Source: a virus. Taken from it: a DNA stretch of 24,312 nucleotides. The position numbers and the translations under genes are program-made. Positions 1 through 17,252 of the stretch are shown in pieces. The stretch is taken from positions 1-24,312 of IMG/VR virus record IMGVR_UViG_3300025168_000647, one strand, 5' to 3'. The number at the start of each line of letters is the position of its first letter. Within the stretch, counting starts at the first letter, position 1. A model generated the notes under the pieces. It was not told where the DNA came from and searched no databases. It saw nothing but the letters and a program-made list of their open reading frames with translations.

Positions 1-1229
1 ACGTTCACACCGCTACGGGCATCAGTAACCTGAGTCAAAGGAACCATAGCTCCCTGAATAAAGTCAGATGCACCCAACAATGTAGGATCGTTCAGCAACT
101 TCCAGTCATGCTTGTGGAAAGTGTATCCACCTCTAGTGAATGACTTAAAGCCAAGCTTAACAGCCATGTCAGCGTCGTTGTTAAACGCACCGAACTGACC
201 AGCCAAACCAGCAGTCACACCAGCAGAGATACCTGAAGCAAGCATGTCGTCGATAGCCAAGTCTTGTGCTCTACCGAGGTACATAGCGTACTCAGAAGGT
301 GCACCCTGCTTGTCGAGCTCAAGGATCAAGTCGTCAAACTCAGAGAAGCTATCCATTGGGTTAGTCTTAGAGTTCTGCACAACCAAGCCTCTGTCTTCAA
401 TAGCAGAGAAGTAGCCTTCAGATCCAGCAAACTCGTTGTCGAAGTCTGAACCAGATCCACCAGCGTGTGTTCTCTTCTCACCGAAGAGCATCATGAGCTC
501 TCTCTTGTCCTCGTAACGAGCGCGAGCTTCTTGCTCACCCTTCAAGTACCAGCGGTAGTTACCACCACCGAGGTTCACCCAACCGATGTTGGTTGCTTGA
601 GATCCGTTTACTTCGTAACGATCCTTCACAATCATGTAAGGGTTAGTGAACTTTCTGATACCCATATCGGTGAATGCCGTTGGCTGGTTGGTTCCCTGCG
701 CGTACATGTTACCGATCTTGATGAAGGTACCTGCAGTAGCTGGGTCGATCTCAGTGCCTGAAGTGATATCAGTGCCATCGAGCAACACCAAGCGTGCAGT
801 AGCAGCAGTACCGCTACCAAAGCCACCAGAGAGAACAATGAAACGAGCACCAGTAGAGGCCTCCATCAACACATCGTTCTTCTGAACCTTAGAGGTTACA
901 GCAGAGTCGGTGATGTCAATGTAGTCGTTGTTACCTGCCAAAGTGGCGCCAGCAGCTGTGTAAGCCAAAGTCTCGTGACGACGGCCAAGCTCCCACCAGT
1001 TGATTTCGTCAGAAGATCCGCCAGCGTTGATAGCGCCAGTGAGCTTCAAGAATCCAGTGATACCTTGGTCTCCGTAAGTCTCGACCAACTGATCCATATG
1101 GAAGTCCTTGGTCGTCTTGACGAGGTTGTCAAGAGTAGTATAAGTCTCAGGCGTGATTCTAAACGCCCCAGGATTGTCGCCACCTGCTGTATTGTCAACA
1201 ACAGGTTGCCCTGATTTAATATTAGCCAT
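1..1229 (-). CDS. Major capsid protein, partial (C-terminus beyond left edge)
   Basis: Predicted shell protein of the phage head. The start is the ATG at 1229, and 409 complete codons are visible before the window ends, so the C-terminus is missing. The call rests mainly on context: it is the last visible gene of a leftward terminase, portal, small structural, scaffold-like cluster and directly follows the acidic scaffold-like gene with a 13-base gap. The sequence is globular, without signal peptide or membrane segment. It starts MANIKSGQPVVDNT and has Gly-rich loops in the middle (GGGNYRWY, AGGSGSDFDN), as expected of a large phage structural protein. I could not identify a specific capsid family by sequence. 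An alternative is another abundant virion protein, but position and size favour capsid. Confidence 0.8.
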   Translation of the reverse strand, partial: MANIKSGQPVVDNTAGGDNPGAFRITPETYTTLDNLVKTTKDFHMDQLVETYGDQGITGFLKLTGAINAGGSSDEINWWELGRRHETLAYTAAGATLAGNNDYIDITDSAVTSKVQKNDVLMEASTGARFIVLSGGFGSGTAATARLVLLDGTDITSGTEIDPATAGTFIKIGNMYAQGTNQPTAFTDMGIRKFTNPYMIVKDRYEVNGSQATNIGWVNLGGGNYRWYLKGEQEARARYEDKRELMMLFGEKRTHAGGSGSDFDNEFAGSEGYFSAIEDRGLVVQNSKTNPMDSFSEFDDLILELDKQGAPSEYAMYLGRAQDLAIDDMLASGISAGVTAGLAGQFGAFNNDADMAVKLGFKSFTRGGYTFHKHDWKLLNDPTLLGASDFIQGAMVPLTQVTDARSGVN

Positions 1230-1242
1230 TTTTGTCTAGTTT

Positions 1243-2304: not shown

Positions 2305-2325
2305 TGTTATTTAATTAAAGTGTTT

Positions 2326-2697
2326 TTACCCTAAGTACAGAACGGCTTTATCGCCGTCTGATGCGTCTACGGATGTGAACTTTCCGTATACGATTGCACC
2401 AACAGCAATTTCTATTGCCACAGAGGTGGTGTCTAAAGCCTCAAAAAACCCTGCAGCGTGAGTACTCCCCAACACTGCGCCGCTGCTATCAACGTGAGTG
2501 CCATCTCCTCCGTTAGCACCCAAGTACTCAAAGATGCCGAGACCCTTAACGGTGAATGTATCATCACTGCCATCGCGGGCCGCACCCATGTTTTGGATAG
2601 CAATAATGTGTTTATTTGTTGGGGCTGCAAAGGCTCCATTGTTGGAGTCAATGACAACAACCCCTCCTTTTCCTGTGTAGTCGCTTGGATGTGCCAT
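2326..2697 (-). CDS. Small structural protein (possible head decoration)
   Basis: A 123-aa protein of unknown specific function, located between the paralogous beta-rich genes and the scaffold-like gene in the late cluster. It has no signal peptide, membrane segment or cysteines. It is rich in Gly, Ala, Asp and Thr with alternating hydrophobic stretches (VAIEIAVGAIVYGKF) that suggest beta structure. The N-terminus contains a YTGKGG stretch that resembles the Y-x-x-G-G motif found in several other proteins of this window. By position and composition a head decoration or other small virion protein is most likely. This is inference, and no family was recognised. Confidence 0.6.
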   Translation of the reverse strand: MAHPSDYTGKGGVVVIDSNNGAFAAPTNKHIIAIQNMGAARDGSDDTFTVKGLGIFEYLGANGGDGTHVDSSGAVLGSTHAAGFFEALDTTSVAIEIAVGAIVYGKFTSVDASDGDKAVLYLG

Positions 2698-2707
2698 GTC
2701 TTATTTA

Positions 2708-3109
2708 TTATGAAAGTGTTACTGCTGAGCTATCCAACCCGAACACACCGTACTCTACGAGTGTGTCAACCCTAGTTGCATAAGCTTTGATATCTTGGTC
2801 GGGGGCAACTGGTACAAAACAAAACTCCCCGCCAGCAAGCTTAGCAAAAACGTCGTCGTTAGCATCATTGTAAAGGTACACGTACTTCTCTCTCTCTACG
2901 TCTAAGTTCTTTACATACAGGTATGCAGAGGTGACCTTATCGTCAGCCTTATACACTTTAAGTGCAGCAGCATTAACTGCAACCTGTGCAACCTTTGCCC
3001 TAGACAGCAGGCCTGAATCCGCGCTAACGGCAGCAGACACATTGAGTGCAATAGGGCTAGAGAGTACGTCTGAACTAGCCAAAGAAAGAGTGGCCCTAAG
3101 AGTACCCAT
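2708..3109 (-). CDS. Beta-rich structural protein, paralogue of the adjacent 245-aa gene
   Basis: A 133-aa protein beginning MGTLRATLSLASSDV. The opening, and a central pair of strands (LYVKNLDVEREKYVYLY, then GGEFCFVPV), align by eye with the neighbouring 245-aa product, which opens MATTTATLTLSSADL and has VYIKNTSSTASEFMSVYL followed by SGDWMFFPW. The two genes overlap by one base (TAATG type), so this is a tandem duplication within the late cluster. The protein has no export signal. Small beta-sandwich proteins here are most likely virion components (head fibre, decoration or tail). The function is inferred from location only. Confidence 0.65.
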   Translation of the reverse strand: MGTLRATLSLASSDVLSSPIALNVSAAVSADSGLLSRAKVAQVAVNAAALKVYKADDKVTSAYLYVKNLDVEREKYVYLYNDANDDVFAKLAGGEFCFVPVAPDQDIKAYATRVDTLVEYGVFGLDSSAVTLS

Positions 3110-3846
3110 TATTCATAAATTACCATAGACTCAAGAGTCATTGCAGTATGAACGCTTGGCATGATGTAGATGTCGGCAGCAGATTTAGTGCCTTCTACTG
3201 TGGTGGCAATAGTCAAATCACCATTACCAGCTGTAGTGGCTACGATCTCGGTTGTGTCAATCTCCAAGTCAGATCTAGAATCTCTTGCGACAAACGTCAC
3301 CGTAGCTGAAGAAACACTAGTAACCCAGTTTGGGTACTGTGCTGCATCAAGCTGAGCGGCAATGTTTCCGACCGTGGAGTCTGCAGCAACAACTGTAACC
3401 CCGTCAAACACCACCGTGTCTCCAGCGGCCCAAGTGTTACCCACAACGCAAGTGAATGTCTCCTTTGTTCCAGCGGTAGCGTTCCAAGGGAAGAACATCC
3501 AGTCACCAGAGTAAAGCCTTCCAATCTCTACAAGAGATTTTGCGCTTGTGTTTGGAGCTCTATCGCCAGTCAAATACACAGACATAAATTCAGAGGCTGT
3601 GCTTGATGTGTTCTTAATGTATACTTTGTTCGCACCGTTTGTAGTGAAGTCGTCAGCTCTGTATAGAACTGTTGTATCAATAACACCAGAGCTAGCAAAA
3701 GAGAGTGTCTTTCTTGCTACGCCAGTGCTTTGATCAAGACCAGTAAGGGTGCCAGCCTTAGTCAATGTTGCTGTGCTGCTGAGAGACAAAGTGTCCCCAG
3801 TCAGGTCAGCGCTTGACAAAGTTAATGTTGCGGTAGTGGTTGCCAT
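3109..3846 (-). CDS. Beta-rich structural protein with an inserted domain
   Basis: A 245-aa Thr/Ser/Ala-rich protein with an N-terminal part and a C-terminal end (ADIYIMPSVHTAMTLES) that match the downstream 133-aa paralogue. Compared with that paralogue it carries an extra block of roughly 90 residues in the middle. The block contains GDTVVFDGVTVVAAD, an Ala/Gln-rich helix-like piece (NIAAQLDAAQ) and a SATVTFVARDS strand. This pattern, a strand pair, a helix and a strand, resembles small modules seen inside many phage tail and head proteins. It is probably a virion protein. A perfect TATATTTG element lies 26 bases upstream of the ATG at 3846 and may allow separate transcription of this part of the cluster. 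Confidence 0.65.
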   Translation of the reverse strand: MATTTATLTLSSADLTGDTLSLSSTATLTKAGTLTGLDQSTGVARKTLSFASSGVIDTTVLYRADDFTTNGANKVYIKNTSSTASEFMSVYLTGDRAPNTSAKSLVEIGRLYSGDWMFFPWNATAGTKETFTCVVGNTWAAGDTVVFDGVTVVAADSTVGNIAAQLDAAQYPNWVTSVSSATVTFVARDSRSDLEIDTTEIVATTAGNGDLTIATTVEGTKSAADIYIMPSVHTAMTLESMVIYE

Positions 3847-3872
3847 TGTTGCTTATTGTTGTTTTGTTTGTG

Positions 3873-3880
3873 CAAATATA
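3873..3880 (-). promoter_or_regulatory. Putative -7 box of a leftward Bacteroidota-type promoter
   Basis: On the minus strand this reads TATATTTG, an exact match to the Bacteroidota -7 element TAnnTTTG, in a short gap between two genes, 26 bases before the ATG at 3846. The flanks (TGCAAATATAGT on the plus strand) are identical to a site before the portal gene. No clear TTG element is visible at the usual 19-21 base distance, so activity is uncertain. Confidence 0.4.
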
Positions 3881-3881
3881 G

Positions 3882-4076
3882 TCATTTTCCCTTAGGGTGA
3901 TCGGCCATCTTAAACTTGGCCTTAGCTATGGCGCCAGGGTGTGGCTTGTAGTCTCCCTTCATGAGATAGTAGCGTCCACCCTCCTCCATCCAGTGATAAC
4001 CCTTTGGCGGATCAACACTCATGGTTTTGTTTGTTGCTTTGAAGTTTCCTCCCTTCTGGTATTTTTTTGCTTTCAT
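3882..4076 (-). CDS. Small basic protein with YxxGG motif
   Basis: A 64-aa Lys/Gly-rich protein beginning MKAKKYQKGG, with aromatic residues in the middle (GYHWMEEGGRYYLMKGDY) and a basic C-terminus. The N-terminal K-Y-x-x-G-G motif recurs in other proteins of this window (265, 209 and 293 aa), which suggests a shared recognition tag or fold element. It overlaps the stop of the thioredoxin-like gene by one base and so belongs to the same late transcript. It has no membrane segment. A small virion-associated or nucleic-acid-binding protein is possible, but the function is unknown. Confidence 0.6.
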   Translation of the reverse strand: MKAKKYQKGGNFKATNKTMSVDPPKGYHWMEEGGRYYLMKGDYKPHPGAIAKAKFKMADHPKGK

Positions 4077-4414
4077 TAGAAATCGCTCATAAGTATTTCA
4101 TCGACTGCATCTTGCACGTCTGATTTGCTGGCTTCAAGCTGCATCATAATGTTTGCTTGAAATCTCTTCACTTCTTCTCCTTCGTTGAACACAATAACTG
4201 TAGGGACTACAACTATCTTGTACTCAGATTGCATCGCGGGTTCAGAAGCAATATCAACTCTTCTCCCTTTACAATCGCTAAGGTCATCTATCCACCCAAC
4301 ACTGTTTGCCGCATTGAAGCTAGCGTTAAACTCCACAACACAGACGCCTGAATCAGGTATACCCAAACCAAGAGAGATGGCTGCAAAAATCAAGACTTGT
4401 GTTAAATGATTCAT
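4076..4414 (-). CDS. Thioredoxin-fold protein lacking the CXXC active site
   Basis: A 112-aa protein with a hydrophobic N-terminal segment (residues ~6-20, a signal peptide or membrane anchor). A thioredoxin-like core follows: the strand VVEF (26-29), then the active-site loop position, a later cis-proline strand VVVPTVIVF (P71), and a C-terminal helix. Aligned with the classical VVDFWAxWCGPC motif, residues 26-37 read VVEFNASFNAAN, so both catalytic cysteines are asparagines and the Trp is lost. The remaining cysteines (25 and 48) are elsewhere. Redox catalysis is therefore unlikely; a structural or chaperone role facing the periplasm or envelope is possible. It overlaps the preceding gene by ATGA, within the late cluster. 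Thioredoxin-like accessory proteins are known in phages, but this exact role is unknown. Confidence 0.65.
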   Translation of the reverse strand: MNHLTQVLIFAAISLGLGIPDSGVCVVEFNASFNAANSVGWIDDLSDCKGRRVDIASEPAMQSEYKIVVVPTVIVFNEGEEVKRFQANIMMQLEASKSDVQDAVDEILMSDF

Positions 4415-4695
4415 TTTAGCTGATCTATTTTCTCTTCGATACGCTTCATATCTTCTTTAATTTCAGTGACATCTTCCTGAGTGCTCATAATGGTTTGCCT
4501 TACAAGCTGATCTTTCATGTCAAACTCCATGCGTGTAATCTCTGGGGCCAACGGTTCAGGTAATTCTTTTGCCTCTGCTATGTCTGCCTGCAAAGCAAAC
4601 CACATGCTTATCAATACGCCCAGCCCAGTGACTGCCATACCTATAGTCTTTAAGTCTAGTGTGACCTTCGTGTCCTCCCCAATTTGCTGAGCCAT
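4411..4695 (-). CDS. Membrane-anchored coiled-coil protein (holin- or spanin-like candidate)
   Basis: A 94-aa protein with a polar N-terminus, one hydrophobic segment (about residues 17-35, TIGMAVTGLGVLISMWFALQ) and a long charged C-terminal helix rich in Glu/Lys with heptad-like hydrophobics (TEIKEDMKRIEEKIDQLK), predicted to form a coiled coil. One transmembrane helix plus an external coiled coil is the layout of some holins and inner-membrane spanins, but also of tail- or head-associated membrane proteins. No lysis gene lies next to it, since the M15 endolysin is about 14 kb away. It sits two bases after the barrel gene and overlaps the thioredoxin-like gene by ATGA, so all three may work at the envelope. 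Confidence 0.55.
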   Translation of the reverse strand: MAQQIGEDTKVTLDLKTIGMAVTGLGVLISMWFALQADIAEAKELPEPLAPEITRMEFDMKDQLVRQTIMSTQEDVTEIKEDMKRIEEKIDQLK

Positions 4696-4696
4696 G

Positions 4697-5731
4697 TCAG
4701 ATTATTACGTAGTTAATGCCAATAGAGAAGTCGTGCCATGATCGGTCCCAGTACTTGTGGTACTTGCCCTCAGCAAACACGCCAAAACTCCTATTGAATC
4801 TTTTACCAAAGATAAGGCCTCCAGAATAATCCACCCATTGATCGCTCCTTACGAAACGGTGGTAAGAGTATTCCCCGTCTGTGTCTACATGGTAGGGGAT
4901 TAGGTTACCCCAGCTGTGTACCCAGAAGTCCTTTGTGAAGTGGTAGTAGTCGAAGCCTACAACGAATGAATGGACCCACTGGCTAGCTAACTCAGATCTC
5001 TTCTTTGTCACGTAATTGTCAAGTACTTGAGGCACAACTACTTCCTCCCACACCTCGTAGCTGCTAGCCACAAGCTCACCCTCAGGGCTAAAGAACTCAC
5101 CCGTGTTGACGTCTATATTGTAGCCCTCCTGAAGCGCCAAAGATGTGAAGTGAAGCTGGTTGTTGTCCAGCAGCCACTCGTTCAAAGGATCGTACCCGTA
5201 TGGCTCTGAGAGACGCTGCATTATGCCAGCGTTCAAGGACAGCTTACCTAGGTTGGCTCTCACTCTCTGAGACCCCTCGAAGTAGCTTACGTCTGCGAAC
5301 CCGTCCTGAAGGTACTCTACCTTGGTAATCCACCGCTCACCCACGTAGCGTAGGAAGTGGTCTTGGTCTAAGTAGTTGATTCCCTGCTGTCTGCGGTAGT
5401 CACCCTCGAACAAGAACTCGAATCCTTTCACTTTGCCTATCGTAGCAGCATCACCGTAGGACTTCTCTGTGCCGTTGTAAAACGTGTTGGCCCTGTTCTC
5501 GTATCCGAAACGAGCGATCTTACGTACCCCTGCTGTGAACGAGTAGTCGAATGGTGTCTTGAGTACGTCTGTCTGGAGCCCGTTACCCACAGAGAATACC
5601 TCCTGATCTGAGATAGAGTTACCTCCGCTGAACGCTGTGTAGAACGTAGCAAACTTGAGGGCCTTCTTTACTGCCTGTCCTGATGCACTGACGCTTACAA
5701 GCAGAAGCAGTAGTGTTGCTATATATCTCAT
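4697..5731 (-). CDS. Predicted outer-membrane beta-barrel-like protein
   Basis: A 344-aa protein with a clear signal peptide (residues 1-19, MRYIATLLLLLVSVSASGQ). It then has many alternating aromatic/hydrophobic strands (for example HSFVVGFDYYHF, YSGGLIFGKRF, FGVFAEGKYHKYW) and a final strand, SIGINYVII, that ends the protein in the manner of outer-membrane barrels. It lacks the opening motifs of the T9SS barrels PorP/SprF that I would expect (QYMFNP, NPAYAG), so I do not assign that family. The ATG overlaps the stop of the 809-aa T9SS-tailed gene (ATGA), implying translational coupling and joint function, perhaps surface display of that protein. An outer-membrane barrel within a virion gene cluster is unusual. 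Receptor masking or an outer-membrane lysis step are other possibilities. Confidence 0.6.
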   Translation of the reverse strand: MRYIATLLLLLVSVSASGQAVKKALKFATFYTAFSGGNSISDQEVFSVGNGLQTDVLKTPFDYSFTAGVRKIARFGYENRANTFYNGTEKSYGDAATIGKVKGFEFLFEGDYRRQQGINYLDQDHFLRYVGERWITKVEYLQDGFADVSYFEGSQRVRANLGKLSLNAGIMQRLSEPYGYDPLNEWLLDNNQLHFTSLALQEGYNIDVNTGEFFSPEGELVASSYEVWEEVVVPQVLDNYVTKKRSELASQWVHSFVVGFDYYHFTKDFWVHSWGNLIPYHVDTDGEYSYHRFVRSDQWVDYSGGLIFGKRFNRSFGVFAEGKYHKYWDRSWHDFSIGINYVII

Positions 5732-8157
5732 TGCTTGATGATTTTCTTTTTGACTCTTCTGTTCTCGTAGTCTATCACGAACATGTACGCCCCGTTAGGC
5801 AAGTCACCTAGGCTTATAACTTTGTCTTTTGTAGGATCTAACACCCTCTGGCCTAGTGAGTTGTATACGGTTGCAACAGCTCCTGCAGGGGACTGAATCC
5901 TTACTATGTCTCTGGTTGGGTTGGGGTTAACCTCGCAGATGGTGTTGTCTAGGATTGTTACGTTAGTTACCCCGTCACCGCAGTACTCGTACAGGTTGAT
6001 GCAGTACGCATCCCAACCCACCTCACAGCAGTAGGGGTCTACCTCAATCACCCATGAGTAGCAGTAGTCATTGGCCCAGTAGGGGGAACCAGCCCCCGTC
6101 ACGCATCCAGCGTCATACACGCAGTCGTCAGCATCTGTGTTGGCCTCTTCATTGTAGTTGTATGCGTCGATGTCTAGACAGCCTTCGATCACAGGGACGC
6201 AGGAGTCAATGTCTACGTTGGCCTCAGGGTCGTAGTTAAGTGCCTCAGCATCAGTGCATCCGAACAGAGCCAGCGTAACGCATGAGCCGTCATCATAGTC
6301 AGCCTCAAATCCTTGCTCGTAGTACTCAAGGTATCCAGCCTGTGTGCAGCCAGCTGCGTAGTAGCATGTACTATCATCAATGTTCGCCACGCTGCTGTAG
6401 TTCTGGGCTTCCTCGTCTGCGCATCCGTAGACAAACGGGTCGCACGTATTTCCGCAGTACGGAGTCACTGAGTAGGTGTTAGGGTATGGCACCATGCTCC
6501 ACTGAGCTACGTCGATTAGCGTGTCTCCTGTAGGCCCCATCAGCATGAATCCACACTGCTCTACTTGGTTCTGGGACTGAGGTGTTGTAAAGAAGAAGAT
6601 TTCAATCTCTTCCTCAGATGACAGATACACATCAAAGGACTCATCGTTACCGTCGTTAGGCCCCATCTTATATTGAGGTGAGGTCCATCCGTCTTGGTAT
6701 ACTCCGATCCAGCTACCAAACCACCCATCGCCTACCCCGTCTGTAATGGTTAGGGTGTAGAAGCAAGAGTCTATGGCGTCCTCTGTATTGGCCAGAGAGT
6801 CGTAGTTAAAGTATGAGTCGTCAATACACCCGTAAACCTTAAGCGTCTCACACAGTAGGTCTACAGAGATGGTTGCGTCTGGGTTGTACTCAACGTAATC
6901 TGGGTCACCGCATCCCACTACACCATCTACATCCAGGCATAGAGGAGTAGAAAACTGAGACGATACGCTGTATCCAAAGTCAGCCACGGGCAAGGACCAC
7001 AGAGTATCCCCACAGGCCTCGACCATGGCGAATCCGTCCTGACCACCCCACTGTGAAGCCCCCATGCCGTCGCCAAAGCTGTCGTTGATGACAATCTCTA
7101 GCTCGTCACCTGTAGTGGCACACGTAGCAAACAGCAGAGGAACACCTACAATGTCATCAGATAGCTGGCCTACGGATAGATCTATAACCAACTCGCTAGA
7201 GGTGACGTTCTGTATCGTAAAGCTCGTCTCTGATGGGTAGTTGTCGAGGATAAGAGTAGTGACTATCTCTGTCTCCCATGGCTGACACTCAGCTCCCAAA
7301 CCTGTGCAAGACCCATTATTAAGGTTGGCCCAAGGATTCCAGTTGCTGGCGTTAGGATTTGTGCATCCAGGCACAGCACCACAAGGCAGGCAGCTCTCCC
7401 AGCAGAAAGGAGGTAGAGAGACGTGGCCTTCGACCACGAGGTTTCTGTTTACATACCCGAACTCATCGAACAAAAAACAAGGAGACTCAGAAACGCCTAC
7501 TGGCAATTCCTGAACCTCCCATTCATCTGCAGAGAACTTCCATAGGTAGCTGCCCTGCACTATAGAAGCAGTAAGCTCCCAAACTCCATCTCCGTCATCA
7601 TCAGTCATCTGAGAACAACTCCCGCACCATGCGTTCCAAGTTCCGTTTACTTCGGGGATGTCTATCTCAGGCGGATGCGGTCCATTAAGATCCAACCTGA
7701 ACGTCACGTCGTACTGGCAGTTTTCTAGGTCAAGATATGCTTGAGGGTTATAGTTGTTGGCCTCTGGGTCCATGCAGTCTGCAAGGGGTGGAGGGCAAGG
7801 TAGTACTTCGAACGGGATGGTAATCTGAGCTTGAGCAAAGTCATACACAAATGCACTGACACCGCACGTATTCTCTATGCCAAACCACCCCTCTCCAAAC
7901 TCACAGCAGATACCGTCTCCAAACTGATCGCTTACCACGAGATTGTACTCCCCAGCAGGAAGTACCACGAGTTGCTGGTTGTATGATGCGTTCTCAAATG
8001 GTCCGCTAGCAGCGTACACGCTGTCAGCACCCACCATATAGATTTCCCACGTGCTCTCACCGCCGTAGGCGTCAGCCTGGAACTCTACGTTTACCCATCC
8101 TGTCTGCGCTGTGGCAAACAGTGGAAACAAGCAAAGCATAAACAATGAGTGTCTCAT
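5728..8157 (-). CDS. Secreted multi-repeat protein with T9SS type A sorting domain
   Basis: An 809-aa protein with a signal peptide (residues 1-18, ending ATAQ). Visible modules are as follows. Three similar GDG-containing segments lie near 75-93, 352-378 and 467-490. A starch-binding-like/CBM-like module lies at ~151-215 (VTFRLDLNG, MTDDDGDGVWELT, GSYLWKF). About eight Cys-bounded repeats of the form GC-x-D-x-x-A-x-NY-x-x-x-A-x-x-D-x-x-x-C start near 128, 265, 416, 443, 578, 603, 633 and 659. The last ~70 residues (740-809) match the T9SS C-terminal sorting domain: NPNPTRD, YNSLGQRV, LPNGAYMFVI and a basic end. The family knowledge is that such proteins cross the outer membrane through the host T9SS and are anchored or released at the surface. 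It is coupled to the barrel gene by ATGA. Adhesion or glycan binding is inferred. Confidence 0.85.
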   Translation of the reverse strand: MRHSLFMLCLFPLFATAQTGWVNVEFQADAYGGESTWEIYMVGADSVYAASGPFENASYNQQLVVLPAGEYNLVVSDQFGDGICCEFGEGWFGIENTCGVSAFVYDFAQAQITIPFEVLPCPPPLADCMDPEANNYNPQAYLDLENCQYDVTFRLDLNGPHPPEIDIPEVNGTWNAWCGSCSQMTDDDGDGVWELTASIVQGSYLWKFSADEWEVQELPVGVSESPCFLFDEFGYVNRNLVVEGHVSLPPFCWESCLPCGAVPGCTNPNASNWNPWANLNNGSCTGLGAECQPWETEIVTTLILDNYPSETSFTIQNVTSSELVIDLSVGQLSDDIVGVPLLFATCATTGDELEIVINDSFGDGMGASQWGGQDGFAMVEACGDTLWSLPVADFGYSVSSQFSTPLCLDVDGVVGCGDPDYVEYNPDATISVDLLCETLKVYGCIDDSYFNYDSLANTEDAIDSCFYTLTITDGVGDGWFGSWIGVYQDGWTSPQYKMGPNDGNDESFDVYLSSEEEIEIFFFTTPQSQNQVEQCGFMLMGPTGDTLIDVAQWSMVPYPNTYSVTPYCGNTCDPFVYGCADEEAQNYSSVANIDDSTCYYAAGCTQAGYLEYYEQGFEADYDDGSCVTLALFGCTDAEALNYDPEANVDIDSCVPVIEGCLDIDAYNYNEEANTDADDCVYDAGCVTGAGSPYWANDYCYSWVIEVDPYCCEVGWDAYCINLYEYCGDGVTNVTILDNTICEVNPNPTRDIVRIQSPAGAVATVYNSLGQRVLDPTKDKVISLGDLPNGAYMFVIDYENRRVKKKIIKQ

Positions 8158-8158
8158 C

Positions 8159-8344
8159 TTAACTAGGGTTTTTTACAGTTACTTCAAATGAGGATGGTGA
8201 AGACTTAATTGTTAGGGGTACAGCACTTACATCTGAGGGTCGAACCGACACAGATGATTGAGTCGTAAAAAACGAAGTCTGTACTGAGCCAGAAACGCTA
8301 ACAGACACGAGTATGTCATTCGATGTTGATACAGATACCGACAT
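8159..8344 (-). CDS. Small Ser/Val-rich beta protein
   Basis: A 61-aa protein made almost entirely of alternating Val/Ser/Thr strands (MSVSVSTSNDILVSVSVSGS, later SSFEVTVKNPS), with no cysteines and no export signal. It overlaps the stop of the preceding 141-aa gene by one base and ends one base before the 809-aa gene, so it belongs to the late structural operon. It may be a small tail, fibre or decoration protein. No family was recognised. Confidence 0.5.
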   Translation of the reverse strand: MSVSVSTSNDILVSVSVSGSVQTSFFTTQSSVSVRPSDVSAVPLTIKSSPSSFEVTVKNPS

Positions 8345-8769
8345 TAAGAAACCGCTTCAAGTATGTTTCGGTTAAGGGCAAATGAACCTCTAAGCACCGT
8401 TGAGTATGTATCAACAGTCGTGCTGCTTGGAAGCCTGTATTGGATTTCGTAAGAGTACGATCCTGACGATATAGAACTCATGGTTTGAGAAGAAGCAGTA
8501 AACGTAACGTTGCCGCTGTCATCCACCAAAGGAGACTCAAACGTATTTACAGCCCCAGAGATGTTAGGGCTAGCCAAAACAATTCGAGGAGATCTAGAAG
8601 ACTTTCTATTGTTTACCTCTGTAACAACAAAGTAAAACTCGTAGTTAGACGTGGAAAGCGTAAGAGCCGTTCCTGATGAATCCTTAAGCGTCAAAGTAAG
8701 AGAGAAAGTATCCCCTCTTTTTGCGGTGATGTCAAGAACACCTGTTACGTCAAGATTTACGCTGCTCAT
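8344..8769 (-). CDS. Small beta-sandwich structural protein (baseplate/tail-like)
   Basis: A 141-aa protein with the opening pattern of several phage baseplate and tail modules: RGDTFSLTLTLKDSSGTALT, then a strand YEFYFVVTEV, a loop with SPNISGAV, and a pair DDSGNVTFTAS and GSYSYEIQYRL. The order (GDT strand, turn with DSSG, later DSGNVTF) resembles the N-terminal domain of upper baseplate proteins such as BppU, but I see this only by eye. It directly follows the portal gene with a one-base gap. The likely role is a tail, adaptor or fibre-attachment protein in the virion. Confidence 0.55.
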   Translation of the reverse strand: MSSVNLDVTGVLDITAKRGDTFSLTLTLKDSSGTALTLSTSNYEFYFVVTEVNNRKSSRSPRIVLASPNISGAVNTFESPLVDDSGNVTFTASSQTMSSISSGSYSYEIQYRLPSSTTVDTYSTVLRGSFALNRNILEAVS

Positions 8770-8770
8770 T

Positions 8771-11236
8771 TTATCTCATTATTTTATCTAGTAGTCCACT
8801 CATTATGTCTTGCGGGTCTTCTTTTGTTTCGTCCTGGAGTTCTCCTCTCTGACCCTGCCTTTGAGATATTAACTTGCTCTGCTCGACAGCCTGCTTCTTA
8901 ACCCTGTCGTCCTTTCTGTCGTCCTTCATTTTCTCGACCTCCACTTTGACGTCTTTATCTGAAGAGATTTTTATCCCCATAGCTTCAGCTCTTATTATCT
9001 CAATCTCTTTGTTGAACGTGTGCTGGGCTTTGGCCAACCGCAACTCCATCTCACCTTTCATCTGAATCTTCTGCTGTTCAATCTGAGCCATCATCTGAAG
9101 CTCTTGTTGTTTTGATTGAGCCTCCATCTGTTGAGCCTGTTGCTGTTGCTGGCCCTGAGCTTGTATCTGTTGCATCTGCTGCTCCTGAGCCTTCTGCATT
9201 CTTTTCTTTCGTCTTACAATCAGAAGCCGTTCAGCCTGATTGATATCCTTCATGTTTCGTATAGCCAAAGCGTCCTCCAGGTCTATTTCTTTCTGAGCAA
9301 TCGCAGCCTGGATGTTTTGTTCCAGGTAGGCCTTGTCTTCGTCCTCCATCTCCTTGACGACCTGAACACCGAAGTTGTACATGGGTAGATCGTTAAAAGA
9401 AGAGAGCACCTTCATGTTCTCCTTGCCCACAGCATTCTGATATGTTGAGTAGATCACCGAGTCCTCTGGAAGTATCTGTAGACACTTGACGATATCCTCG
9501 CACACCTTTTTGTAAAGGACCATGGCGGAGTTCGTGATGTCGTAGATAGCATTGTTGCCAGCATTGATGGCTTGCTGCTGAACACCAACCAAGGCTTCTC
9601 CCTTTGGGGACGAAGCATCCATAGCCTCGTTGATGCCCGTTGTGTCTCGGATCATCTGGAGGTAGTGGTTGTACAGCCTTATCAGTTCGTTTATGTTTCT
9701 GATGCTGTTTCCAATCTCACGAACTGGAGGGTTTTGGAATCCGCCCTCTGGGTTCTTGCTTCTGTAGTAAAACACACCAGTCTGCTCGTAGATGTCATGA
9801 AGCTCCAAAGGCTGCAGCTCGCCACCCTTTCCAAGCTGCACGTTTTCTAGACCTTCGATATCAATGATGAGTCCATCAGGCTTAGCCTTTGCTATCGACT
9901 GCTGTATCTTCAGGTGAGTGATCTGAAGCATGTCTGCAAATCCAACGCAGCTGTCAACCATGGACTTAGGCATCATGTCCCTTAGGTTAGTAGCGACAAC
10001 GGAGTAAGACATCCTGGCCTTAGAGATATCATGCACGTTCTTGGGAACGTTCTTTGCTCTACCGTAGTTAAAGAGGTAATCTTTTGTTCCAAGCACGTAA
10101 GACCCCTTGTATACGGTCTTGATATCCATCTTGTGAGGCTTTCTTTCAAATACAGAGTTCTGCTTCTCTTTGTAGTCAAACCCCTTGTAGTAAAAGCCTT
10201 TGTTGCCGAATCGGTTCTCTTTTTCTTCAAAGAACACGCAATCTACAGAGATGTATTCAAAGTCTAGGACATCAACTAGATACTCGTCGTATCCAAACTG
10301 AGTTCTACCAGTGATAGTGTTGTATGTGGACCTTCCGTAGTTGGCGGAATTGTTTCCATATTTTCCTTGATACTTCTTTGCAATCTTAGCGTACTGCTCT
10401 TCTGAAAACTGCTCACCAGCCATCCTCTTCAGCTCCTGGATTGGAATAGTTTTAACGTGACCAGCATATACCAAATCATCGAAGTTCGGGTCTTCAGTTC
10501 TGCTATGAATAAACTTATTGGGGTCTACATAAGATGTAGCAATCCCGTAGTTTGGGTCGTTGAATCTCTGGACAACAGCCATACCTAGAGTAGCAAGGTC
10601 ATTGACACACCTTCTAAAGATGTTGTCATTGAAGTTGTTCCAAGATAGCGTCATGTTGGTTGCTATCTGAGCAGATATCTCAGCATCAGTTTTGATGTTG
10701 GTGTCCATCAGGATCTCAGCCTCCTCAAGGGTCTCTGGCAATTTTTCTGGGTCCTGGTCTAGCACAACCCCCGTCTTCTTTTTTAGCTCTGCTAGTTTCT
10801 CTCTAGCCTGAACCTGCATCTTGATCTTATTCTTCTCTCTGTTCTTTTCTGAAGAAGACAGAGGGTCAATAGCCTCAAGGTTTGGGTATGGGTTCCTAGA
10901 AAGGATTTTGTTTACCACAATCCTAACGAACTTAGGTAGGATAGGGACTGGAGTAAAATCAACGTTCATCAAGCTACCTTCCCCAGCATTTGGGTCCATG
11001 GAGTTGAGAAGTCTTTTGTATATGTTTGTGTCCTGAGTTCCGTTTGCGTAGCTTCTACACCTGTCAAAAACTCTGTTTCTTTCGCCGTGCAGAGAGTTGC
11101 TTTCTTGCATCTTACCCCACTGTCTCTCAATAGCTTTGGCGTACTTTAGTCCGTACTCCTTGCTTTCCTTTACCTCCGTGGAGGCAAGAGGGTCGGGGAA
11201 GCCCCCTTTTAACTTTTGCTCTGCGTTGCTGTACAT
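8771..11236 (-). CDS. Portal protein
   Basis: An 821-aa protein encoded directly after the large terminase, the standard place for the portal: the dodecameric head vertex through which DNA is packaged and ejected. The N-terminal ~640 residues are a mixed alpha/beta globular region with typical portal features: an early helical clip/wing region, a VVNKILSRNPYP stretch near 107-118, and the long-helix region NINELIRLYNHYLQMIRDTT (~514-533) with MDASSPKGEA following. Residues ~670-790 are an extended Gln-rich, then Lys/Glu-rich coiled coil (for example QQMQQIQAQGQQQQQAQQM), longer than in many portals and comparable with barrel or tail extensions. The ATG at 11236 is only five bases from a perfect TATATTTG element. 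Confidence 0.8.
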   Translation of the reverse strand: MYSNAEQKLKGGFPDPLASTEVKESKEYGLKYAKAIERQWGKMQESNSLHGERNRVFDRCRSYANGTQDTNIYKRLLNSMDPNAGEGSLMNVDFTPVPILPKFVRIVVNKILSRNPYPNLEAIDPLSSSEKNREKNKIKMQVQAREKLAELKKKTGVVLDQDPEKLPETLEEAEILMDTNIKTDAEISAQIATNMTLSWNNFNDNIFRRCVNDLATLGMAVVQRFNDPNYGIATSYVDPNKFIHSRTEDPNFDDLVYAGHVKTIPIQELKRMAGEQFSEEQYAKIAKKYQGKYGNNSANYGRSTYNTITGRTQFGYDEYLVDVLDFEYISVDCVFFEEKENRFGNKGFYYKGFDYKEKQNSVFERKPHKMDIKTVYKGSYVLGTKDYLFNYGRAKNVPKNVHDISKARMSYSVVATNLRDMMPKSMVDSCVGFADMLQITHLKIQQSIAKAKPDGLIIDIEGLENVQLGKGGELQPLELHDIYEQTGVFYYRSKNPEGGFQNPPVREIGNSIRNINELIRLYNHYLQMIRDTTGINEAMDASSPKGEALVGVQQQAINAGNNAIYDITNSAMVLYKKVCEDIVKCLQILPEDSVIYSTYQNAVGKENMKVLSSFNDLPMYNFGVQVVKEMEDEDKAYLEQNIQAAIAQKEIDLEDALAIRNMKDINQAERLLIVRRKKRMQKAQEQQMQQIQAQGQQQQQAQQMEAQSKQQELQMMAQIEQQKIQMKGEMELRLAKAQHTFNKEIEIIRAEAMGIKISSDKDVKVEVEKMKDDRKDDRVKKQAVEQSKLISQRQGQRGELQDETKEDPQDIMSGLLDKIMR

Positions 11237-11241
11237 TCGTG

Positions 11242-11249
11242 CAAATATA
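11242..11249 (-). promoter_or_regulatory. Putative -7 box before the portal gene
   Basis: TATATTTG on the minus strand, in the 17-base gap between terminase and portal, with the same flanks as the site at 3873-3880. A transcript from it would begin at or very near the portal ATG, so the message would be almost leaderless. No TTG element is present at the expected distance. It may be a weak internal promoter, or conserved for another reason. Confidence 0.35.
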
Positions 11250-11253
11250 GTGA

Positions 11254-13365
11254 TTAACCGATTACGTCGTATCTGCGATAAAACTTCTTGCTTTTGAAGT
11301 CAGACTTCTTTTTAGGCTTTGTTTTTTGAGCAGCAAGAAGAGCCATTCCAGCGCTTATTGTAAGGTCAAACTTTGTTCTCTTATCTATTTTAAATCCAAT
11401 CCAATCCTCCAGGGTTTTATTGAAGTACATCCTCCCCATAGCTCCTGAGTCATAGTTCACTCCTACATGGTCGTGTATGTATGTCTCTATGGCTTGAGCA
11501 TGAGCCTGTATTACTTCTTGAGAGTTAGAAGGTATGCCCTTTGTCTTTGTCTTAAACTTTGCCCCTGTGGTTGTCAAGTGCTCAGGCCTATCCATTAAGT
11601 AACCGTCGTAACCTCTTGATTCAAAGTATCTTGCGATACCGTACTTATTGTTTTCAATTAAGACTGGGTATCCGTAGTAGAACGCACACATTAGAACGTC
11701 TTCATAAAATATCTTAGCTAGGTCGGGCCTGGATGCATACTCAACGACAAACATGTTCGACGGATGATCCATATGAAACTTATTGTACATGTGCAGAGCC
11801 CCCTTAGATCCCCTGCCGTCCACTGTTGCGTCGATGTCATACGAGTCAACGCCACCGCACCCCCAGTTGTGAGGAGGCACCCGCTTGCCCCTATCTAGAA
11901 CCATAACGTTTCTTTGCTCTGGCGGGGGCATCCAAGCCACGTTAAATCTTCCGTTGGGGTCTGGAGAGAACGTCACCTCTTTGTCCTTCTGAACCCATAT
12001 GAAGTTACCCTTTACAACAGGGTTTGGGAACAGCTCCTCGTTGTGCTCTATCTGCTCGTATATCTTACCTATGTTAAACAAGCTACCCTCGATGCTATCG
12101 CGGAATGCTTCATCCTCTGTAAAAGGGAATTGCCTTGTAACCTCGTTAAGTTCAGAAGGGTCGTCCTTTAGTGCTCGTCTTTCGTTTTTAAGATACGTCT
12201 TAGCTCCGATATTGACCAGCTCGCCATCAAGACCGTCCACAGGCGAAACAGGATCTTCAATGATTGGATCTCCGAATATATCGAAGAAACCCTCCATAGA
12301 CACGTATGAAGGCATGAAAAGCCTATACAATCCAGATCTAGTCCTCCCATTCTCGTTCCTCATCCTTGGATCTGAATCCTTCCATAGATCCTTGTATTCT
12401 TGACCACCTTTGTCCATAGGATTTACCGTGCTTCCTACCAGAGCCTTTCCGACTATTTTTCGCCCTACGATCAAACACGTCCTCTGTATCCTCCAAGCGT
12501 CTCTTATGTCTGTAGGTTTTTCCCATTTTCCTGCCTCATCTAAATACATGATGTGGAGCTTCTCCCCATCGTATGCATTGTTCGTTGTGTTTTTCCAGTT
12601 GATTACAGTGTTAAGGGCCTCTCCCTTTTGAGCTGTTTTGTTTTTCTTGGTAATTCTCTTGCTGGGCTCTCTGAAAGCCAGCTCCATACGAGGGTTTGTT
12701 GTTCCGTCTTGAATGGGCTTAAAGAAGAAGGGGTAGTGTCTAAACATGTAGACGACTTTCTTCATAAAAATATTCTCCTGAGCGTCTTTACCAGTTTTCG
12801 ATTGTATGCCGAGAAGCTTGTCTTTAACTTGTGTAGCTTCATCAACAAGAACAGAGCTACAGATATTAGTATACCCAGAGCGGCGACACTTAGTATATAG
12901 CTGACCGATACAACGGGGATCAGCTTCGCACGCAGCCATGTGGATAAAAATTTCACGTTGGAACGCAAGATAGTAAGGATTTCCTACATCCATCATACTC
13001 CACTGGAGCATCATGTAGTGCCTACCCGTAATATATGTAGGGACACCATTATTGAAAAACCAAAAGCCCTCACGCCTACGGCGAAACTCTTCTTCGATAT
13101 ACGGACGAAACCTTTGTCGAAACTCCCTTGGCATCTCCCCCCACTCATCCATAGACTTAATCCTAGACAGCTCCTCTGGCATAGAAACTCTCTTCCACAA
13201 CTGCATGTCGTTTGGACTTCCATATCCTTTAATTTCTTTTTCGGGAGGCTGAGCGGGAAGTGCAATGAATAGCCCACCGAGTTCAACAACTTCACCTTTT
13301 GTACCCTTGGGGCAAATTGAGACAACAGGCTCATCATGATTCTCTATTTCTAACAGTATATTCAA
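11254..13365 (-). CDS. terL: Terminase large subunit
   Basis: A 703-aa DNA-packaging motor with ATPase and nuclease halves. The ATPase has a deviant Walker A, K159-CRRSGYT-166, with the lysine at the start of the motif and Tyr where the usual Lys stands. This is the arrangement known from phage lambda gpA (KSARVGYS). Walker B is IMYLDE (272-277), and a coupling-type motif GSTVNP lies at 311-316. The RNase H-like nuclease part shows candidate acidic metal ligands D507 (GGVDSYD), E542 (FVVEY) and D667 (KFDLTISAGMALL). The C-terminus is basic. The best start is TTG at 13365, which overlaps the stop of the 48-aa upstream gene as TTGA; the next in-frame ATG is at residue 54, inside conserved-looking sequence. 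Confidence 0.92.
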   Translation of the reverse strand: MNILLEIENHDEPVVSICPKGTKGEVVELGGLFIALPAQPPEKEIKGYGSPNDMQLWKRVSMPEELSRIKSMDEWGEMPREFRQRFRPYIEEEFRRRREGFWFFNNGVPTYITGRHYMMLQWSMMDVGNPYYLAFQREIFIHMAACEADPRCIGQLYTKCRRSGYTNICSSVLVDEATQVKDKLLGIQSKTGKDAQENIFMKKVVYMFRHYPFFFKPIQDGTTNPRMELAFREPSKRITKKNKTAQKGEALNTVINWKNTTNNAYDGEKLHIMYLDEAGKWEKPTDIRDAWRIQRTCLIVGRKIVGKALVGSTVNPMDKGGQEYKDLWKDSDPRMRNENGRTRSGLYRLFMPSYVSMEGFFDIFGDPIIEDPVSPVDGLDGELVNIGAKTYLKNERRALKDDPSELNEVTRQFPFTEDEAFRDSIEGSLFNIGKIYEQIEHNEELFPNPVVKGNFIWVQKDKEVTFSPDPNGRFNVAWMPPPEQRNVMVLDRGKRVPPHNWGCGGVDSYDIDATVDGRGSKGALHMYNKFHMDHPSNMFVVEYASRPDLAKIFYEDVLMCAFYYGYPVLIENNKYGIARYFESRGYDGYLMDRPEHLTTTGAKFKTKTKGIPSNSQEVIQAHAQAIETYIHDHVGVNYDSGAMGRMYFNKTLEDWIGFKIDKRTKFDLTISAGMALLAAQKTKPKKKSDFKSKKFYRRYDVIG

Positions 13366-13508
13366 ATCCAGGGTTGATTAGACAAGAACTCAAGCCAATC
13401 AAGAACGGTAACTATTCCGTCACCGTCGTAATCATAGGCCTTATTGTCTGTGCCAAAGGAGTTGTAAAAGCCAGCAACCTCCTGCATAAAGTCTAGGAAA
13501 TCTTGCAT
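13362..13508 (-). CDS. 48-aa mini-protein with EF-hand/dockerin-like calcium loop
   Basis: A short ORF, MQDFLDFMQEVAGFYNSFGT followed by a DYDGDGIVTVLDWLEFL motif. The latter is a D-x-D-x-D-G-x-I-x-x-x-D calcium-binding loop as in EF-hands and dockerins, followed by a hydrophobic helix. Very similar loops occur in the C-terminus of the nearby M43 protease (DYNGDGYIGNTDVLELL) and in the 265-aa basic protein (DLTGDGKVTMADIL). The stop codon overlaps the TTG start of the terminase (TTGA), so the two are probably translationally coupled. It could be a small calcium-dependent partner, even a reduced small-terminase substitute, but no DNA-binding motif is visible. Its function is unknown. Confidence 0.55.
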   Translation of the reverse strand: MQDFLDFMQEVAGFYNSFGTDNKAYDYDGDGIVTVLDWLEFLSNQPWI

Positions 13509-13612: not shown

Positions 13613-14545
13613 CTATCTAAACAATGTTACATGTCCTTGCATGCTGACAACCTTAGTTGATCTATAGGTGGTCCCCCTGATCGTCCATAGGTAAACACCG
13701 TCAGGCACATAGGCAAGGCCTCCATCTCCCAACCACTTGTCACGGGGGTCATAGCTCTCCCACACTACAGCACCCCATCGGTTGTAAACCCTACACTCCC
13801 ACTTCCACCAGCAATCAGGCTTTGTAACAGGCCTCCACGTATCGTTCACGTAGTCACCGTTAGGGGTAAATACGTTGGATACGTATATGCACGGGTCCTT
13901 GCAGTCGTCTACGTTGGGTGGCTCAGGTGGTGGAGGTCCATATGTGTCTGTTGTGTCCGTTGTTTCTACAGGCTCCCAAGGCTGTGGTTCGTTAGGCACG
14001 GGAGGCGGAGGAGGTCCACAGTCGGCCTCCATAGAAAACTCCAACCAACTGTTCGGTATGTTCTCGTCTGGGTAGTCGCAACCTGCAATGCCTGCGCTGC
14101 TACCGTCTAACGTCTCACTGTCGTTGATCTGCCAGACCGTGATGACCATGCAGTCTTCCATGAATATACCTTCCTGAAGAGCTTGCACCCAGCATTGTAG
14201 TGTGCCGCTTCCAGCCAAAGGCGTGTCTTCGACAATATTAAAGGCTATGGTGTCTCCAGCCTGGAAGATGTTGTCGGGGCCCTGCCCCATCTCAAAACCA
14301 GGAAAGTCTAGAGGGTAGAGCAACAGCATCCAGTCACCTTGAAAGCAAGGCCAAGGACTCTCGTCTTGAGGAGGGTTGAAGCCAAGGGCTAGGATAAACT
14401 CTCCAATGCTGTCAGACTCAGTGCAGCATGCACCTCCGTTAACAACCATCATGATGTCAGTAGATATAGGATCGAACCCTAAGATCTCTATGTCACACTG
14501 CCCGTAGCTGAGCAGAGGTATGAGGAAGAAGATAAGTTTTTTCAT
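13613..14545 (-). CDS. Secreted protein with T9SS type B (gliding-motility CHU_C-like) sorting domain
   Basis: A 310-aa protein with a signal peptide (residues 1-15, cleavage before Q16). It has a Cys-containing N-terminal region (~16-176), a Pro-rich linker (~177-212, runs of PPPP), and a C-terminal domain at ~220-310. The C-terminal domain shows the type B T9SS signature: YVSNVFTPNGDYVNDTWRPV, VYNRWGAVVWES, VPDGVYLWTIRG and the final HVTLFR. The family knowledge is that this domain targets proteins to the Bacteroidota type IX secretion machinery, often for surface attachment. The N-terminal region matches nothing I recognise. The ATG overlaps the stop of the M43 protease gene (ATGA), so the two are co-translated, and a joint surface function is plausible. 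The tRNA follows. Confidence 0.85.
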   Translation of the reverse strand: MKKLIFFLIPLLSYGQCDIEILGFDPISTDIMMVVNGGACCTESDSIGEFILALGFNPPQDESPWPCFQGDWMLLLYPLDFPGFEMGQGPDNIFQAGDTIAFNIVEDTPLAGSGTLQCWVQALQEGIFMEDCMVITVWQINDSETLDGSSAGIAGCDYPDENIPNSWLEFSMEADCGPPPPPVPNEPQPWEPVETTDTTDTYGPPPPEPPNVDDCKDPCIYVSNVFTPNGDYVNDTWRPVTKPDCWWKWECRVYNRWGAVVWESYDPRDKWLGDGGLAYVPDGVYLWTIRGTTYRSTKVVSMQGHVTLFR

Positions 14546-16299
14546 TCCTTAGGGCATGGGCCAGTACTTGCCAACATCAGCAGCAGGTCTTGGATATTTA
14601 CAACATTGTCATCGTTTGGATCGGTATAGCATGCACCAAGGCATCCCATATCTACAAGCAACTCAAGGACGTCGGTATTGCCTATGTATCCGTCACCATT
14701 GTAGTCCATATTGCACTGAGACAGTGAGTTACAGAACTCAAACTCAATGACAGAGAACTGAAGGCCGAAGCCTGTGTTTACTAGAGTATCAAGCCCCACG
14801 GTAGCAAGGACTCCATCGCCTCCAATATCACAAACCCCATCATTGTCGAAATCAACCGTACAGAAGCCATCTCCTGCAGTATCTTCTATCTCAAATACAT
14901 AGCAGTCATCAAAGATACAGGCGGAGTAGTAGAAGGTTTCATTGCTGCTCGTTCCGTATCCTCCATCAGACAGCAAAACCTCATCATCGCTGTCTCTCAG
15001 CTCCCAAGACGTCTCGTTGCCAAAAACATCGGGAGTCACCCATACTTCCATAAGGTCGCCTTCTATTATGTCTAAAGCCCACCAAGATGCGTCGTTGTCT
15101 GCAAACTGATCAAGGCTGGAGATTGTTTGAACGGTAAACTCCTCTGCACCCTCTACGTATACCGCCTCAAAGAATACCTGAGTAGATCCAGGTTGTAGAT
15201 CATACAAAGAAATCACTTCCTGCGGCCCGTTGCAAAACATCTCTACATCTACAAGCGGAATGGTCTGCGTGCCTTGATTGATTACGTCAACCCAAATGTC
15301 TTGATATGGAGTGCACCACTCTTGTTGATAGTAAGCAGCCCCAGCAGTCACATCGAAGTCTACGACAGGCACACAAGCTAGGTTGTCTACAAGGCCCTGT
15401 CTGCTGCCCTGAAGCATCTCGTGCATACGCTCAGCCTGCCCCACAGTAAATGCGTCCTTACAGGTCTCAGAGGTATAATCCATAAAGTTGTTTACCAAAG
15501 CGCCTGGACATACACCCCCGTCACATTGAGCTGTTGAGTTAGAGAGGGTGGTTGGAGTGTCACATACTTGATCCCCTTGGGACTCACAGTTACTTTCTGA
15601 AGTGCATGAGGATGTGTTGGAGAACGTATGCCACAAAGAAAGGTGGTGCCCCACTTCGTGAACCCCTGTAAACCCCAACGTCCTTCCTGGTTTCTGTACT
15701 CCAACCGTACCTGTAGCGTTGTATAGTACAACCACCCCGTCCCTGCAATCACCTGTTGGGCCTAAGTATGCGAAACCTTGTACCCCGTTGTTCCCGTTAT
15801 TGTCGTTGATCTCTGATACCACATAGTAGTTGATGTACTCGTTAGGATTCCAACAACCTGCAGCTGACTTGAGTTCTGTCTGCTCCCATCCTACTGGATC
15901 AATATTCGAAGGGGTGTTGCCTATGCCTCCAGTCACGTAGTCCTCGTTCCAGCTAGCGTCGTATCGAGTGATACCATTTGTGGGATTGCCATCAGGATCA
16001 CGCACAGCCATGCAGAACTGAATCTTGCTGTCAGAGAACTCTTCGTTCAGCACATCCACCTGAGACAGTATCTGCTCATCAGAAATATTGTTGGGTTCAC
16101 CCGCTCCAGTATGTACAACATGAAACACAATGGGTAGGGTCTGAACCTCTACATCTTCAAGGGTTAAGTCGAATTTCTTTTGAAGCCCCATAACCTGAGA
16201 CTTGGTGTGCATAATCTGGCACTCTTGCCCAAACATCTCATCTAGCTGCACAAACCATAAGGTGATGAGTATGAAATAAATGAATCTTAAATTAAACAT
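14542..16299 (-). CDS. Secreted M43-family (pappalysin-like) metalloprotease with dockerin-like C-terminus
   Basis: A 585-aa protein with a signal peptide (about residues 1-24). The catalytic domain carries the zinc motif HEVGHHLSLWH (H214, E215, H218, H224) and a downstream Met-turn NNFMDY (M273), as in M43/pappalysin-type metzincins. The usual Gly of HExxHxxGxxH is Ser221. The many cysteines fit an extracellular enzyme. Residues ~310-520 are beta-rich accessory domains. The end (~529-583) has two dockerin-like calcium loops: DYNGDGYIGNTDVLELL and DPNDDNVVNIQDLLLML. It has no T9SS tail of its own, but the coupled 310-aa gene does. Likely action is protein cleavage outside the cell; the substrate is unknown. 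Cell-surface remodelling or matrix release during infection is inferred. Confidence 0.85.
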   Translation of the reverse strand: MFNLRFIYFILITLWFVQLDEMFGQECQIMHTKSQVMGLQKKFDLTLEDVEVQTLPIVFHVVHTGAGEPNNISDEQILSQVDVLNEEFSDSKIQFCMAVRDPDGNPTNGITRYDASWNEDYVTGGIGNTPSNIDPVGWEQTELKSAAGCWNPNEYINYYVVSEINDNNGNNGVQGFAYLGPTGDCRDGVVVLYNATGTVGVQKPGRTLGFTGVHEVGHHLSLWHTFSNTSSCTSESNCESQGDQVCDTPTTLSNSTAQCDGGVCPGALVNNFMDYTSETCKDAFTVGQAERMHEMLQGSRQGLVDNLACVPVVDFDVTAGAAYYQQEWCTPYQDIWVDVINQGTQTIPLVDVEMFCNGPQEVISLYDLQPGSTQVFFEAVYVEGAEEFTVQTISSLDQFADNDASWWALDIIEGDLMEVWVTPDVFGNETSWELRDSDDEVLLSDGGYGTSSNETFYYSACIFDDCYVFEIEDTAGDGFCTVDFDNDGVCDIGGDGVLATVGLDTLVNTGFGLQFSVIEFEFCNSLSQCNMDYNGDGYIGNTDVLELLVDMGCLGACYTDPNDDNVVNIQDLLLMLASTGPCPKE

Positions 16300-17251: not shown

Positions 17252-17252
17252 T

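Follow-up and report, generated by a model that had tools for sequence, protein, structure and literature searches.

Phage-encoded T9SS cargo and the protein T9A

Two earlier reports mention phage-encoded cargo of the type IX secretion system (T9SS). For Cryophage, three variable type A T9SS genes were described and termed a unique occurrence; these endoglucanase, GH39 and PA14 genes are found on flexible islands within a single type of phage (Bellas et al., 2020, PMC7468147). A 2019 study on BACON domains in gut phages reports that one cluster of phages has proteins with T9SS sorting domains upstream of its head section (PMC6949934). Here, we analyzed a stretch of 24,312 nucleotides from an uncultured virus (IMG/VR record IMGVR_UViG_3300025168_000647, positions 1 to 24,312), called the window throughout the paper. 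Its gene at 5728..8157 on the minus strand encodes T9A, a secreted protein of 809 amino acids with a signal peptide, eight cysteine repeats and a T9SS sorting domain of type A. T9A heads a phage operon that is conserved and portable and has the gene order T9A-OMP-h94-g112. Like the Cryophage proteins, T9A is a phage-encoded type A T9SS sorting-domain protein; however, it belongs to one conserved family, found in a fixed four-gene cassette of many phages. The crAss-BACON cluster 2 also has T9SS-tailed proteins upstream of the head module, but they carry BACON repeats, and no OMP/h94/g112 cassette is reported in the available part of that study; this comparison was made by description and not by sequence (PMC6949934). 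In the literature searched, which excludes subscription papers and preprints, no published description of the T9A-OMP-h94-g112 cassette was found, phage-encoded T9SS cargo as such being known from the two reports. A preliminary description of the window, made from its letters alone, had called such proteins little described, which was fair in view of these two mentions (PMC7468147, PMC6949934). Many uncultured marine Bacteroidota phages carry the cassette, and our data suggest that late in infection they use the export route of the host to modify the cell surface or to open it.

The protein features given in the preliminary description, namely 809 residues, a signal peptide, about eight cysteine repeats and a Por-type sorting domain, were all confirmed, with the repeat number being exactly eight. 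The N-terminus (MRHSLFMLCLFPLFATAQ) was assigned as a signal peptide by sequence reading and a simple heuristic, and heuristically a signal peptide was called in 102 of 107 T9A family members. T9A contains 41 cysteines, one of them within the signal peptide. The repeat 'GC.D..A.NY...A.....C' starts at residues 128, 265, 416, 444, 579, 604, 634 and 660, the body consists of GDG-containing beta-sandwich domains, and a cysteine module at residues 685-726, in front of the C-terminal domain (CTD), is conserved. The claim of T9SS targeting had been made dependent on a match to sorting-domain hidden Markov models (HMMs), and such matches were found above the cut-offs for residues 744-809 with both TIGR04183 (35.1 bits, cut-off 23) and PF18962 (30.4 bits, cut-off 27). 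Both models matched 28/28 aligned T9A proteins (E<=0.1/0.01). Searching the PDB by sequence with the T9A family profile yielded 8glk_D (E 1.1e-6), 8glj_D and, weakly, the CTD of gingipain R2 (5hfs). The AlphaFold2 model of T9A (mean pLDDT, the predicted local distance difference test score, of 71.6) showed seven strands at residues 742-808 with a pLDDT of about 79-89. Using Foldseek, these residues were placed on the NucA CTD 8glk_D with a TM-score of 0.75 (target), a root-mean-square deviation of 2.5 and a probability of 1.00; this structure is the NucA CTD bound to the translocon of the F. johnsoniae T9SS. A Foldseek search with the whole T9A model gave nothing meaningful beyond this CTD match.

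The ratio of nonsynonymous to synonymous substitution rates (dN/dS) was determined between the window and the related loci L083 and L084. It was 0.06-0.16 for T9A and about 0.04-0.05 for the CTD alone, so the sorting domain has been maintained by selection in these pairs. Against more distant relatives the CTD values were 0.17-0.38, with synonymous sites near saturation. The T9A CTD is a genuine type A T9SS sorting domain. Type A cargo proteins such as NucA, RemZ and RgpB share with T9A the signal peptide, a seven-stranded CTD, the PNP motif and a basic C-terminus; T9A differs from them in being phage-encoded, in its operon with a phage-specific barrel and in that no host gene for the whole protein was found. 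With family HMMs, homologues of solved structure, the fold match and the low dN/dS of the CTD, the targeting claimed in the preliminary description is well supported, and T9A is very probably exported via the host T9SS, as judged from CTD family, fold and conservation.

The four-gene cassette and its partner proteins

The partners of T9A, located at 4076-5731, had been missed in the preliminary description. There is a 4-nt overlap between the T9A stop and the OMP start, a distance of 1 nt between OMP and h94, and again a 4-nt overlap between h94 and g112; judged from these coordinates, the cassette genes are translationally coupled. The four genes recur throughout IMG/VR. Co-occurrence was determined for 50 distinct loci flanked by five or more genes on either side, which were found via OMP or h94 and not via T9A. 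This sample drew on IMG/VR, and four additional loci came from genome contigs. A CTD-bearing protein within five genes was present in 50/50 of the loci found via OMP or h94, and all four genes in 48/50. Among 42 loci with an OMP new relative to the T9A- or portal-derived loci, 42/42 had the CTD protein and 41/42 the full cassette. Co-occurrence and coupling together make it highly probable that the four genes act together. The order T9A-OMP-h94-g112 was nearly universal, with T9A following g112 in L176, L198, L209, L222 and L223. A small protein of 49-62 aa, here called 'INSW' (MKI.WINSWN..NKKEKYE...GTVTVLEI...C.C..C...RFMILNFGFE), often lies between T9A and OMP (L165, L146, L178, L180 and others). 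Proteins of 2,200-2,650 aa upstream of OMP in L207, L229, L231, L234 and L239 were considered as substitute cargo and rejected, having no T9SS CTD; they resemble a giant family of other contexts, in which Pfam finds LPD38.

OMP (4697..5731, minus strand, 344 aa) carries a signal peptide and is a predicted phage-specific outer-membrane beta-barrel. Its AlphaFold2 model has about 12 strands (mean pLDDT 72), and the 50 Foldseek matches listed were all barrels of the outer membrane, at low TM-scores; the predicted localisation agrees with the signal peptide and the amphipathic nature of the barrel. The mean column identity was 63% over 39 sequences. Neither Pfam, NCBIfam and PHROGs nor the PDB, searched by sequence, gave a match. 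OMP matched at least 570 IMG/VR stretches versus 4 in about 85,000 genomes, and in INPHARED (50,697 phage records, tblastn) no convincing match was found (best E 0.7). By this distribution, OMP is phage-specific and rare in bacterial genomes. Of the copies in genomes, the one in L212 is a full phage-type cassette adjoining an amidase, and the one in L211 came from a bin labelled Candidatus Nitrosopelagicus, which is an archaeon; the genome copies therefore look like phage contigs binned into metagenome-assembled genomes (MAGs). Phage-like contigs in MAGs were seen for L210, L211, L212 and L213, the archaeal label of L211 being a likely misbinning in view of the T9SS-type phage context of its gene. 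PorV and PorP/SprF resemble OMP as beta-barrels working beside T9SS cargo, but OMP lacks profile similarity to them. OMP as a phage PorV or PorP/SprF was rejected at hhalign probabilities of 0.3% and 1.5%, respectively, both comparison profiles being shallow.

The second partner, h94 (4411..4695, minus strand, 94 aa), has one N-terminal transmembrane segment and a predicted coiled-coil tail. It is the most conserved cassette member, with a nearly invariant coiled-coil-like tail, and the dN/dS between the window and L083/L084 was about 0.01 for h94 and 0.04 for OMP. Together with the T9A values, these ratios show purifying selection on the cassette. Weak PHROG matches were obtained to phrog_1009 and phrog_462. 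The third partner, g112 (4076..4414, minus strand, 112 aa), combines a signal sequence with a thioredoxin-like body that gave sub-threshold matches to PF00085. It is without the catalytic CxxC, this position reading FNASFN in the window and FNAxFN/FNAxWN across the aligned members. The tblastn search of INPHARED gave no convincing match for h94 or T9A, and for g112 nothing but short alignments to thioredoxins of Streptomyces phages. OMP, h94 and g112 represent three protein families unnamed in current libraries.

For T9A itself, pieces of the body (residues about 147-265 and 571-680) are matched at 40-54% identity in many genomes from the order to which G075, the Flavobacteriales MAG containing L212, belongs. 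No full-length cellular counterpart was seen in the search of those genomes. The best cellular match was a 996-aa frame (G075:C32), compared to 994 aa for the T9A of L212, and it probably comes from that very phage contig. With only pieces matched in host genomes, the body is a phage reassembly of domains common among the secreted proteins of hosts. An AMPK1_CBM-type (CBM48-like) domain was found in three T9A family members. Tandem CTD-bearing proteins (about 690-710 plus 411-521 aa) precede OMP in L029, L099, L142, L145 and L150, which suggests cargo duplication. Cargo bodies sharing domains with secreted Flavobacteriales proteins would suit an accessory gene of benefit to the host, a Cryophage-like secreted adhesin or carbohydrate-binding protein that aids the infected cell until lysis, as would the CBM48/AMPK1_CBM-like domain and the M43 protease/T9B gene pair travelling along with the cassette (see below). 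However, none of the approximately 85,000 genomes searched with OMP yielded a free-living copy of the cassette in a cell, and OMP, h94 and g112 are fixed and phage-specific, unlike interchangeable cargo. We therefore consider a benefit for the host improbable.

Genomic position, lysis-gene context and possible function

Host-like cargo domains and a T9A gene somewhat richer in GC than its flanks are also what an assembly artefact, a host T9SS gene fused to phage DNA, would produce. Such a chimera, named in the preliminary description as fatal to its claim, was refuted and its probability is negligible. An independent IMG/VR metagenome contig (L003) was 99.98% identical to window positions 941-13710 (12.8 kb), the portal-T9A junction was repeated in L002 and L004, and the T9A family recurred in dozens of viral contigs.

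PHROG comparisons identified terminase, portal, capsid-type protein and an M15 endolysin as neighbours in the window. The cassette lies between the portal protein (8771..11236, minus strand, phrog_6547, E 5e-192) and the terminase large subunit (11254..13365, minus strand, phrog_6681, E 3e-203) upstream, and a capsid-type virion structural protein (3..1229, minus strand, phrog_13704, E 1e-88) downstream, the place between portal and capsid genes having been given for T9A in the preliminary description. Its emphasis on the virion gene cluster is misleading, and the link that it suggested is not supported. The close relatives L083 and L084, with terminases 79-80% identical to that of the window and cassette DNA 87.5% and 83.6% identical, respectively, over 4.1 kb, have it behind a holin and a gene for a giant protein, unlike the window. 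In a tree of 86 OMP sequences the window was nested with L083/L084 (support 100/99), the 9-row group around it consisted mostly of copies in giant/holin context (support 100/98), and at least 26 context changes were counted, a rough number since contexts were labelled automatically. Given the varying position and the nesting of the window copy within holin-adjacent ones, a functional tie of the cassette to the portal/capsid position was rejected. Further bearers of the cassette have terminases that are very distant from that of the window (L089 and L093, E about 1e-6), and in L218, a phage of about 178 kb with the cassette, no homologue of the window terminase was found. Based on these comparisons, the cassette spans phages of several terminase lineages.

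Sequenced relatives of the window include Elemovirus, Baltivirus, Callevirus and Gundelvirus phages, which share portal (about 29%) and terminase (31-39%) homologues with it. Their hosts are Flavobacterium, Cellulophaga and Tenacibaculum. The genes for terminase, portal, scaffold and major capsid protein are directly consecutive in the elemo and Calle phages, and the cassette was found in none of these four groups; the cassette family is missing from 87 sequenced phages whose portals are related. In about 40 portal loci the cassette lies downstream of the portal, within the fibre-gene region. Many of these bearers have only a stump of 45-61 aa where cassette-free relatives have a fibre-like gene of 145-1137 aa; in the window it has 61 aa (8159..8344, minus strand). 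Position and N-terminus suggest homology of stump and fibre-like gene, and the stumps give the impression that the cassette has taken the place of the fibre gene. Taken together with the portal and capsid neighbours of the window copy, this fibre-region location could indicate that T9A, perhaps with OMP, is a fibre-like or decoration component of the virion acquired outside the cell. We regard this as very unlikely, as signal peptide and T9SS CTD would lead T9A away from the assembly site, the cassette position is not conserved and the sequenced phages with related portals are without the family.

A different neighbourhood became visible when lysis genes were considered. In 26/56 loci a lysis gene lay at most two genes from the cassette ends, and in 29/56 at most eight genes. 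One group has a holin (phrog_3427, E 7e-22) directly upstream of T9A, another group peptidoglycan-binding amidase endolysins. The order T9A-OMP-h94-g112-M15-holin was found in L226, L227, L232, L233, L236-238, L241 and L242, with small extra genes in some of them, and by sequence reading a T7-lysozyme-like amidase lies directly 3' of the cassette in L093 and L149. Lysis-type cassettes in L228, L230, L235 and L236 contain a secreted protein of 100-120 aa after h94 with repeated hydrophobic stretches ('DKLLHMGGSYVISS...'), possibly a further lysis factor. With one N-terminal transmembrane segment, a coiled coil that would be periplasmic, and a place near holin/endolysin genes in many phages, h94 resembles the i-spanin Rz in topology.

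To our knowledge, it is poorly understood how phages of Gram-negative Bacteroidota handle the outer membrane and surface layers. We propose that late in infection T9A would pass through Sec into the periplasm, where it would be recognised by its CTD, and the host SprA/PorV translocon would then carry it to the external side of the outer membrane. OMP would insert into the same membrane, h94 would reside in the inner membrane with its coiled coil in the periplasm, and g112 would be periplasmic. The T9SS-loaded surface module could then, together with holin and endolysin, open or loosen the envelope so that virions leave. As the T9SS motor is powered by proton flow (PMC10994853), T9A would have to be outside by the time of holin triggering, in agreement with a late operon preparing the surface either for release or for exclusion. 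An outer-surface step of egress is the most likely purpose of the cassette, though a tentative one. The specific form, a T9SS-dependent lysis in marine Bacteroidota in which surface T9A held by OMP would, together with the inner-membrane coiled-coil protein, perform outer-membrane release, is considered doubtful.

Several observations weigh against such a role in egress. Packaging or capsid genes surround the cassette, with no recognised lysis gene within eight genes, in 19/56 loci, neither lysis nor packaging/capsid genes were found near it in 8/56, and the window's own cassette is without an adjoining holin or endolysin gene. About 20% of all genes in these loci sit at most three genes from a lysis gene, so the enrichment of the cassette near lysis genes is only moderate and suggestive, in a count that ignores kinship. 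Late genes cluster in any case. The cassette was absent from 29/69 portal loci, including L005, L006 and L008 with full flanks, and since related phages do without it, lysis does not generally depend on it. No catalytic domain was recognised in T9A, the likeness of h94 to i-spanins is one of topology with no sequence homology shown, and no o-spanin-like small lipoprotein partner of h94 was seen among the cassette neighbours.

The patchy occurrence in only some related phages is as expected for an accessory exclusion trait. T9A and OMP may coat the surface, or occlude it, so that rival phages cannot adsorb and released progeny are not trapped on ghosts; such superinfection exclusion or debris masking was proposed by Bellas et al. 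for the Cryophage cargo (PMC7468147). T9A is a large repeat-built surface protein with a T9SS tag and with domains common to secreted host proteins, and in the portal context the cassette occupies the fibre locus, several copies with the stump described above. On the other hand, exclusion proteins are usually early or lysogenic, yet the cassette adjoins late and lysis genes, and there is no obvious need for h94 and g112, which are almost always retained. We judge exclusion or masking somewhat unlikely. A conserved phage operon borrowing the phylum-specific T9SS would represent a widespread oceanic control of the infected cell surface, and the T9SS would become a host factor for phage fitness. 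The cassette moreover serves as a marker linking uncultured phages to T9SS-bearing hosts.

A second T9SS-tagged protein and further genes of the window

A second T9SS-tagged protein, likewise missed in the preliminary description, is T9B (13613..14545, minus strand, 310 aa), secreted and with a type B (CHU_C) sorting domain. CHU_C matched with 49.3 bits (cut-off 27) and TIGR04131 with 34.0 bits, just below its cut-off of 35. T9B is paired with a secreted M43-type metalloprotease of 585 aa (14542..16299, minus strand) containing HEVGHHLSLWH. With T9A of type A and T9B of type B, the window phage thus encodes two T9SS-tagged proteins, one per known type. T9B accompanies the cassette in L083, L084, L085, L088 and L190; in L083/L084 the pair of T9B and M43 protease is 91-94% identical to that of the window, lies on the opposite strand and adjoins g112. 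T9B was also present in L006 and L008, both without the T9A cassette there. Between T9B and the terminase, a tRNA-Arg (TCT) is located at window positions 13527-13601 on the minus strand. A 227-aa protein with a Cpn10 (GroES) domain (16658-17341, minus strand; 24.2 bits, cut-off 21.1) is of a kind commonly found next to the terminase in such phages.

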